Part shown: positions 14,911 to 19,121 of the stretch, piece after piece
Position numbering within the stretch: position 1 is the stretch's first letter
How the letters are laid out: the number at the start of each line of letters is the position of its first letter
From: a virus
Virus record (IMG/VR): IMGVR_UViG_3300043410_000582
Span: 1-29,495 of that record
Strand: one strand, 5' to 3'
Length of the DNA: 29,495 nucleotides
Translations under genes and position numbers: made by a program
Notes under the pieces: generated by a model
What the model saw: the letters and a program-made list of their open reading frames with translations, nothing else
The model's database searches: none
Told to the model about the DNA's origin: nothing

Positions 14911-15041
14911 GTACTCTGTGAGTTGTAACACAGTAGGTATAACCGCAGGTCAACAGCTATATCCGATGATCTCACTTTAGGAAATATATTTTTCTGGGGA
15001 GTATACAGTCACTGCCACCAATAGTTTAACACGGGGGGAAG

Positions 15042-15117
15042 TTATCCACAGGGCAACGGGCAGACCCCCCACCCCCTCCCGCGGTTATCCACACCCTGTG
15101 GACAATGTTGTGGATAT
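15042..15117. other. DnaA-box cluster, candidate replication origin
   Basis: Two exact TTATCCACA boxes lie at 15042-15050 and 15085-15093 on the plus strand. An inverted TGTGGACAA at 15097-15105 is the complement of TTGTCCACA, the box form common in actinobacteria. TGTGGATAT at 15109-15117 is a one-mismatch inverted box. The middle pair are head-to-head with three bases between them. An AT-rich stretch (about 14979-14995) flanks the cluster and could be an unwinding element. DnaA is the host initiator protein, so this suggests replication started by the host. The boxes are seen directly; the origin role is inference. Confidence 0.65.
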
Positions 15118-17491: not shown

Positions 17492-17706
17492 CCTACTGGA
17501 TAAGTATGGGAACTGTCCTACTGATAGGATACGGGTTGATTAGATGGAGTGGGAGAGAAGATGAGCAAGCGAACGAAGGCAGTAGTGGCAGCACTGGCGT
17601 TGTTGCTACTGGCAAGTTGGGTTTACGATCCCCTGCCAAGCATAATGCCCAAGCAGATACCAGTAATTACAGCACGAACCAAGGCTACAATGGAGGAGAA
17701 GCGTGA
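17488..17706 (+). CDS. Small membrane protein, overlaps the transglycosylase start
   Basis: This is a 72-residue protein beginning ATGA on the previous stop. Residues about 4-20 are hydrophobic (WISMGTVLLIGYGLIRW), followed by a polar, Gly-, Ser- and Asn-rich tail, so it is a single-pass membrane peptide. Its last two thirds are read in another frame from the transglycosylase gene starting at 17561. It ends in a GTGA overlap with the frame at 17703. It could be holin-like, given that the overlapping gene is a cell-wall enzyme. Couplings on both ends support it; the absence of a strong ribosome site and the overlap lower confidence. Confidence 0.5.
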   Translation: MTYWISMGTVLLIGYGLIRWSGREDEQANEGSSGSTGVVATGKLGLRSPAKHNAQADTSNYSTNQGYNGGEA

Positions 17707-17995
17707 GAATAAACGAATCGCAAGAGAATATAGTCGCGCTCTCGGATATTCGAGAAGAGAAGTTGCGTGCCTTGTCACCCTATGGACCCGTGAAAGCAGG
17801 TTTGACCACCTTGCCAAGCCAGTCGACAGTAAAGGGAGAAAACGAAGCACGGCTTATGGAATTGCTCAACTCCTTGGAGAGCGTAGCGGAGAGCCTGCAA
17901 TACAAGTCCTTCACGGTTTACGATACCTTGGTGTGCGCTATAGAGGGAGTGCGTGTCGCGCTCTCAGCTGGCACACAAGACACGGGTGGTACTGA
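17561..17995 (+). CDS. Membrane-anchored or exported lytic transglycosylase
   Basis: This is a 144-residue protein with GGGAG five bases upstream of the ATG. Residues 6-20 are a hydrophobic segment after a basic start (MSKRTKAVVAALALLLLASW), a signal peptide or signal anchor. The catalytic domain has TRESRFDHLA with a likely catalytic Glu near residue 78, then STAYGIAQLLG and the end SACRALSWHTRHGWY. This pattern is typical of actinobacterial SLT-like lytic transglycosylases, which cleave the glycan strand of peptidoglycan; the paired cysteines near 70 and 132 are also usual. It may be a SAR-type lysin or an exported wall-remodelling enzyme. It lies in the early operon, away from the M15 endolysin, and shares its whole length with two other frames. 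Confidence 0.82.
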   Translation: MSKRTKAVVAALALLLLASWVYDPLPSIMPKQIPVITARTKATMEEKRENKRIAREYSRALGYSRREVACLVTLWTRESRFDHLAKPVDSKGRKRSTAYGIAQLLGERSGEPAIQVLHGLRYLGVRYRGSACRALSWHTRHGWY

Positions 17996-18011
17996 TGAAG
18001 AGTCGATTTAA
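17703..18011 (+). CDS. Overprinted hypothetical protein inside the transglycosylase gene
   Basis: This is a 102-residue frame almost entirely within the transglycosylase gene but in a different frame. It starts at GTG overlapping the stop of the 17488 gene (GTGA), with GGAGGAG five bases upstream, one of the best ribosome sites in the window. The product is acidic and looks protein-like: helical charged N-terminus (LSDIREEKLRALSPYGPV), a long amphipathic helix (EARLMELLNSLESVAESLQY) and a small C-terminal helix. It ends 16 bases past the methyltransferase start. Good initiation signals and composition support it, but overlapping frames can mislead, so confidence is moderate. Confidence 0.5.
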   Translation: MRINESQENIVALSDIREEKLRALSPYGPVKAGLTTLPSQSTVKGENEARLMELLNSLESVAESLQYKSFTVYDTLVCAIEGVRVALSAGTQDTGGTDEESI

Positions 18012-18458
18012 TGATGGGCTTAAGACGTCGCTATCAGATTCTTGGACAACTCCACGAAGTACTTACGATGTGCTTGACAGAGAGTTTCATTTTGCACTCG
18101 ACGCAGCAGCCCTGCAAGCATCCACTCTGGTACCGGAAAACTGGTACGGACCAGATCATCCTGAGCCATCACGTCAAGATGCGCTCACTCGCTCCTGGTT
18201 GGATGACTGTAACGGTGGGACCGTGTGGCTTAACCCACCGTACGGCAGAGCTATTAAATCCTTTATGGCAAAAGCTAACCAAGAGGCTCAGGGGGGGTCC
18301 AGGTCGTTGCTCTTGTCCCAGCACGTACTGACACTCAATGGTGGTGGGATAGCGTCATCCATCACGAGGTTAGATTTATTAAGGGCCGGCTTAAGTTTGG
18401 AAATCAGACCAACTCTGCGCCATTCCCATCAGCAATAGTAGTAATGGGTATGCTATAG
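17995..18458 (+). CDS. Phage Dam-like DNA N6-adenine methyltransferase, needing a -1 frameshift at 18291-18297
   Basis: The ATG overlaps the transglycosylase stop as TGATG. The first 101 residues contain SDSWTTPRSTYDVLDREF, ALDAAA and the catalytic motif WLNPPYGR near residues 78-85, matching phage DNA N6-adenine methyltransferases, which modify adenine to evade host restriction or to mark phage DNA. After a run of seven G at 18291-18297 the zero frame reads on to a stop at 18438 without family sequence. The -1 frame reads VQVVALVPARTDTQWW, then HHEVRFIKGRLKFG and APFPSAIVVMG, the family's conserved C-terminus, to the stop at 18456-18458. The full product would be 154 residues, near normal length. 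This is either programmed frameshifting or slippage on G_GGG_GGG, or a single-base indel. Confidence 0.82.
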
Positions 18459-18480: not shown

Positions 18481-18518
18481 CCCACCGGAGTTTACCTCTT
18501 TCGCCGGTGGGTTTACTT
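18481..18518 (+). terminator. Intrinsic terminator of the early plus-strand operon
   Basis: CCCACCGG at 18481-18488 pairs perfectly with CCGGTGGG at 18504-18511, followed by TTTACTTCTTT. It lies 23 bases after the methyltransferase stop and in the gap between convergent operons; the minus-strand methyltransferase gene also stops inside its tail. On the minus strand the tract after the stem is not T-rich, so action mainly on the plus strand is expected. Confidence 0.8.
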
Positions 18519-19121
18519 CTTTCTAATCCATACTTGTGAGTTGCGTACAAGCTCTTCGTACTCACCCTCGTGGCGATCAAGGAACATATGAATACCCAGC
18601 TTAGGTGCGTGTATATCAATGCCGTCAGGGTGTTGCCATTCGTAATCGTCAATGGCTAGTAACCCACCTGACTTAAGCCAAGGCCACGATAATTCGCAGT
18701 CCAATAGCGCAGAAGCGCTGGTGTGGTGTGCGTCCACATAGATGAAGTCGTATTGTATAAAGCGTTCGTGGTCAAGAAGAAAAGACTGAGTGGTTTCATC
18801 AAAAGATCTAAGTTTACTTTTGTATTTATTAGTCTTTAATCTGTATGTGTTATACACATCCTTGAAATCCATCTCTTCTTGGATAGGTTCATTAGGTGCA
18901 CCTTGCCACGTATCAACATCAGTCAGAAGAGTATCTTTGCCAGTCAGTACGTTCTCTAGTAACCAAAGGCTTGCGTCTCCTGTGAATACACCAAGCTGCA
19001 GATAATTAAGATCATCTTTGCCTGCTTCGGGTAGCAAGAATCGCTCAAAGTTGTGCTGTGCTATCTGCTTAAACCAATTAGGATACTCAGTAGCAGTCAT
19101 CGTGGTTACACTCGCATCCAT
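18513..19121 (-). CDS. Class I SAM-dependent methyltransferase
   Basis: This is a 202-residue protein. The glycine-rich SAM-binding segment LQLGVFTGDASLWLLE lies near residues 41-56, followed by the acidic strand-2 motif TDVDTWQG. Further on come FIYVDAHHTSASALLDCE and the post-motif SGGLLAIDDYEW, the pattern of Methyltransf_24 and TylF-like enzymes that often methylate small molecules or sugars. The substrate here is unknown and could be a virion glycan, host metabolite or nucleotide derivative. The ATG at 19121 gives a 35-base overlap with the gene upstream; the ATG at 19100 is an alternative, and neither has a clear ribosome site. It is the last gene of the replication operon. Confidence 0.8.
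   Translation of the reverse strand: MDASVTTMTATEYPNWFKQIAQHNFERFLLPEAGKDDLNYLQLGVFTGDASLWLLENVLTGKDTLLTDVDTWQGAPNEPIQEEMDFKDVYNTYRLKTNKYKSKLRSFDETTQSFLLDHERFIQYDFIYVDAHHTSASALLDCELSWPWLKSGGLLAIDDYEWQHPDGIDIHAPKLGIHMFLDRHEGEYEELVRNSQVWIRKK

Follow-up and report, generated by a model that had tools for sequence, protein, structure and literature searches.

A Dam-like methyltransferase gene split at seven G

The window, that is, the whole stretch of DNA analysed, is a virus contig of 29,495 bases that encodes phage terminase, portal, helicase and sigma-like proteins. Its plus strand carries a Dam-like methyltransferase gene matching the PF05869 profile (17995..18438), which as it reads now, out of frame (OFF), encodes 147 aa. 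Reading from the ATG at 17995, the codons at the G run (18291..18297, plus strand) are CAG GGG GGG TCC. Up to this run the zero frame encodes 101 family residues, including WLNPPYGR and ending in AQGG at the seven G, followed by 46 non-family residues to the stop at 18436-18438. The C-terminal methyltransferase part lies in the -1 frame (18297..18458, plus strand), extending from VQVVALVPARTDTQWW through RFIKGRLKFG to PFPSAIVVMGML and a stop at 18456-18458. PF05869 matched across both parts and broke at the tract: positions 5-85 fell in the zero frame (E 2.3e-13, 50.6 bits; cut-off 28.1) and positions 89-128 in the -1 frame (E 0.0011, 19.1 bits, a score that for the C-terminal part alone lies below the whole-protein cut-off). 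The -1-frame part also matched PHROG_111 (1.8e-14). Joined, the two frames give a protein of 154 aa, and the gene shows no lesion besides the shift at the tract. For comparison, an in-frame relative (L004) matched PF05869 at 76.5 bits, and the NPPY catalytic motif was invariant. The initial annotation had described a gene split across two frames at seven G in exact register, with the run as the cause of the split, family sequence lost from the zero frame after it, and a family C-terminus in the -1 frame that one slip would join into 154 residues; this observation is confirmed.

The gene upstream (17549..17995, plus strand) has a weak Phage_lysozyme2/transglycosylase-like match, and its TGA overlaps the methyltransferase ATG as TGATG, an arrangement that suggests translational coupling of the methyltransferase. 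Downstream lies a convergent gene with a family match to Methyltransf_24 (PF13578; 18513..19121, minus strand); a homologue of it is located directly upstream of the methyltransferase on the same strand in L004. By inspection, the stretch between the convergent methyltransferase genes (18481-18520) holds CCCACCGG...CCGGTGGG followed by a T-rich sequence, likely a terminator. Further away, positions 15033-15095, without clear genes and situated between a minus-strand terminase block and plus-strand genes, contain G6 and C6 runs and two DnaA-box-like TTATCCACA sequences, making this stretch a possible replication origin. The closest terminase relatives were from unassigned Caudovirales and next from Streptomyces phages (43-47% identity), which hints weakly at an actinobacterium as host. 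A DNA-level search of annotated phages gave no match to the window.

Another IMG/VR record (L002, sample 3300047560) was the same as the window over 10,303 bp except for the tract, which is G9 there and G7 here. The frame is broken in both copies, but in opposite senses, so a single -1 frameshift cannot serve both. In the collections searched, we found no in-frame copy of the window's exact phage, and an exact-sequence scan with the window's G7 context returned no further contig.

Recurrence of the tract and frame states among relatives

The initial annotation had proposed comparing the run in related phages. Among 80 relatives, loci collected by scanning for the N-terminal part only, a procedure blind to the tract, the same codons carried G7-G10 in 33 and G2-G4 in 47, with no G5-G6 in between. 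The run thus recurs at the same codons, but its codon register is not conserved, as the tract starts at codon position 1, 2 or 3 depending on the lineage. Family-wide IMG/VR scans for the motif and then a run at the same spacing retrieved G runs of at least seven in 70 contigs and A runs of at least seven in 4; these scan-selected sets were picked for carrying the tract or for resembling the window, and their frequencies are no population estimates. The longest tracts among relatives reached G13. All but one of the contigs compared were metagenome assemblies. Across 84,980 bacterial and archaeal species genomes, a tract at the same spacing appeared in one contig (L257), part of a Dehalococcoidia metagenome-assembled genome; this contig may represent a prophage or a virus that was binned along. 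In the collections searched, the tract form therefore appears to be essentially viral.

Codon usage makes such a run improbable at random. GGG makes up 16% of the glycine codons outside the site and, in tract-free genes, 8% of those at the site. When the tract-bearing in-frame genes were resampled synonymously, 3.1% of draws had a run of at least seven G at any position of the gene. Compared with 33 of 80 relatives at one site, this indicates that the tract is more than chance. In a tree computed with the tract excluded, tract presence changed 19 times, at least 10 of them forced by well-supported branches, although support on this tree is limited by the short alignment.

We then asked for the frame of 146 distinct genes in which both halves could be placed. 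All 85 tract-free genes were in frame; of the 61 tract-bearing ones, 46 were in frame and 15 were out of frame, eight in one direction and seven in the other (Fisher p 6.7e-7 for frame state versus tract presence). Out-of-frame genes mostly sat next to in-frame (ON) sisters on the tree. A GenBank phage, nd12 (OR777946.1; L371:1195-1623), carries G9 at the same site and is likewise out of frame; this methyltransferase of the same kind is filed as a 'hypothetical protein' (WRQ08096.1).

These frame states bear on a suggestion of the initial annotation, programmed -1 ribosomal frameshifting at G_GGG_GGG, by which ribosomes would read across the split and produce the complete enzyme. In its favour, the window heptamer is in exact register and the gene is otherwise intact. 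However, the relatives show neither a conserved in-register heptamer nor a fixed direction of shift, most tract-bearing genes are already in frame, and the G9 copy of the window's phage would need another shift than the G7 copy. Nor did we find a stimulatory structure: the fold of 18298-18370 gave z = -0.32, seven relatives shared no consistent structure, and the stem that had been proposed at about 18317-18348 falls away, its pairing being absent from the minimum-energy fold. Frameshifting of the lambda G/GT type, used in tail assembly, relies on a conserved slippery site with a fixed direction in tail genes; the present case has in common with it a slippery run in a phage gene, whereas conserved site, fixed direction and tail gene are all absent. 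We regard programmed frameshifting as highly improbable.

An ordinary pseudogene, with a frameshift picked up at random by a decaying gene, would agree with the broken frame in both copies of the window's phage. Against it stand the missing second lesion, the recurrence at the same codons and the absence of any break in the 85 tract-free genes. Complementarily, pN/pS of OFF C-termini against in-frame relatives was 0.178, compared with 0.163 for ON pairs; by this measure, out-of-frame C-termini are under purifying selection like in-frame ones. In-frame and out-of-frame states are thus both found in an otherwise intact, selected gene, and decay is a very unlikely account of the window gene.

Tract length in near-identical contigs and structure of the tract site

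Three contig pairs had flanks that were 100% identical over about 407-442 nt and tracts of unequal length, namely G7/G9 (the window and L002), G7/G8 (L036 and L040) and G10/G9 (L009 and L011). As a control, we compared homopolymers in 111 near-identical contig pairs covering 246,511 aligned bp. G/C runs of 8-10 differed in length in 10 of 29 comparisons, all within methyltransferase tracts (six in the Dam-like gene, four in a second gene), whereas A/T runs of 6-9 and G/C runs of 6-7 differed in 0 of 101, with control runs of at least eight outside methyltransferase tracts being few (8 A/T comparisons). The length polymorphism between near-identical genomes hence exceeds that of other homopolymers.

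The initial annotation had offered a rival explanation, a one-base error in the G run; the true gene would then be in frame. Homopolymers are error-prone, the data are assemblies, and neither copy of the window's phage is in frame, all of which would suit a sequencing or assembly error. Yet the other homopolymers in the same contigs were constant, and near-identical contigs were frequently concordant at G8 to G10. In addition, OFF genes occur in many lineages and in GenBank phage nd12, and since the tract is maintained at its site, error cannot account for its presence. The recurrence, the control homopolymers and the G9 contig disfavour this explanation, which we consider unlikely overall, but it could still hold at the window contig itself, even with a locus that is phase variable.

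Predicted structures place the tract where its length could vary. The L004 model reached a mean pLDDT of 81, with four other models being poorer, and locates the tract in a loop between a helix (85-98, after NPPY) and a strand (103-109). A frame shift at this point would remove three strands and one helix from the model, and the OFF state would be expected to lose activity. The glycine loop has room for two to four glycines, in keeping with a site that can vary in threes, and related genes with G9 and G12, or with G10 and G13, are in frame at either length. Fold searches returned modest matches, to methyltransferases, the best being a cap-specific adenosine methyltransferase (E 1e-4), with E. 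coli Dam at E 0.004; the NPPY motif and a methyltransferase fold thus coincide in the PF05869 protein.

Proposed slipped-strand switching of phage methyltransferases

In Campylobacter, poly-G phase variation has a usual cutoff of 7 G and proceeds at ~1e-4 to 4e-3 per division (PMC8224891), with tracts of G7-13 (PMC6321876). The range of G7-G13, the absence of G5-G6 in the unselected relatives and the shifts in both directions match this behaviour, from which we infer slipped-strand mispairing. Together with a mononucleotide tract of at least seven inside an open reading frame, these findings argue that the window's phage very probably carries a contingency locus, in which a poly-G tract inside a Dam-like adenine methyltransferase gene changes length by slipped-strand mispairing. 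The gene is here in the OFF state, and the run at 18291-18297 is its putative switch. The polymerase slippage mentioned in the initial annotation holds up if DNA polymerase and a heritable change of length are meant.

Slippage could also occur in RNA, where RNA polymerase adding or dropping G would let each DNA length yield some full-length enzyme. A long G run could permit this, and both shift directions are compatible with it. However, the tract in the DNA varies in length from one near-identical phage to another, the majority of genes already read in frame at the DNA level, and the lower edge of G7 coincides with the replication-slippage range of Campylobacter. As the main explanation, transcriptional slippage is quite unlikely; it may act as leakage beside phase variation.

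According to the slipped-strand model, tract length would change through mispairing during phage or host DNA replication, and this change, heritable and reversible, would turn the gene ON or OFF. A phage population would then be a mix of methylating and non-methylating virions. The ON state may protect against host restriction, and in the OFF state phages may escape modification-dependent restriction or save the cost of methylating, which would be a form of bet-hedging. Restriction of unmethylated and of methylated DNA have both been reviewed (PMC12707154).

The proposed switch resembles the poly-G contingency loci known from Campylobacter, Helicobacter and Neisseria, among them phase-variable restriction-modification genes (phasome, phasevarions), in its intragenic G tract of 7-13, its ON/OFF frames and its methyltransferase target (PMC6321876, PMC8224891, PMC12003011). 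In contrast to these bacterial loci, it resides in phage genomes, we noticed no partner restriction gene, switching is predicted from sequence, and the same codon site is used in many lineages, having been repeatedly gained or lost. With the phage Dam-like family PF05869/PHROG_111 it shares sequence family, NPPY motif and size. Among annotated phage records, however, the best relatives listed (all <60% identity) mostly match in one unbroken piece; environmental virus contigs often carry the tract form, and we saw it in one GenBank phage (nd12). Phages also encode diversity by diversity-generating retroelements and invertible tail-fibre segments, in which dedicated enzymes vary adhesins; in the present case, it is DNA methylation that would be varied, by simple slippage of the tract. 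Long homopolymers have been noted in N4-like phages, with their regulation left open (PMC3670811). In the open-access full-text literature, we found no report of phase-variable phage methyltransferases, which is no proof of novelty. The slippage mechanism itself is known in bacteria.

Other runs of at least seven G in related contigs lay mainly in C5-cytosine methyltransferase genes (PF00145), ahead of the PTLNxxDN segment. A scan for this tract retrieved at least 120 IMG/VR contigs, and among the matches listed, 18 of the 91 genes with a resolvable frame were out of frame. Where contigs carried both genes, their states differed: the adenine gene was OFF and the cytosine gene ON in L098, the adenine gene ON and the cytosine gene OFF in L141, L069 and L074, and the cytosine gene ON at its PTLNxxDN-side tract with the adenine gene OFF in L006; as a C5 gene may hold more than one tract, its overall state is less sure. 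With the adenine and C5 genes in different states, the methylation pattern could be combinatorially variable.

C5 tracts, ON and OFF, were seen in L006, L017, L069, L074, L090, L098, L111, L124, L141 and L148, some genes having two tracts. Tracts of G8-G9 were additionally observed in a DPPY-motif methyltransferase-like ORF (L131:492), a C5-type methyltransferase-like ORF (L093:4867) and a further ORF (L084:4135), and in one lineage a conserved G8-G9 tract follows soon after the methyltransferase (L045:3371, L073:5648 and L130, minus strand 8002).

More broadly, there is about an even chance that environmental phages keep a multi-gene methyltransferase phasome of adenine and cytosine enzymes, in which independent poly-G slippage creates many patterns per population and hedges between restriction of unmethylated and of methylated DNA. 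For annotation, the tract is a warning, since OFF genes are filed as unrelated hypothetical proteins, as in phage nd12, or would be mistaken for pseudogenes. If phages do own phase-variable methyltransferases, a population would alter its DNA modification by slippage, faster than by gene gain or loss. This would bear on the passage of phages through restriction systems and make viral bet-hedging directly testable.
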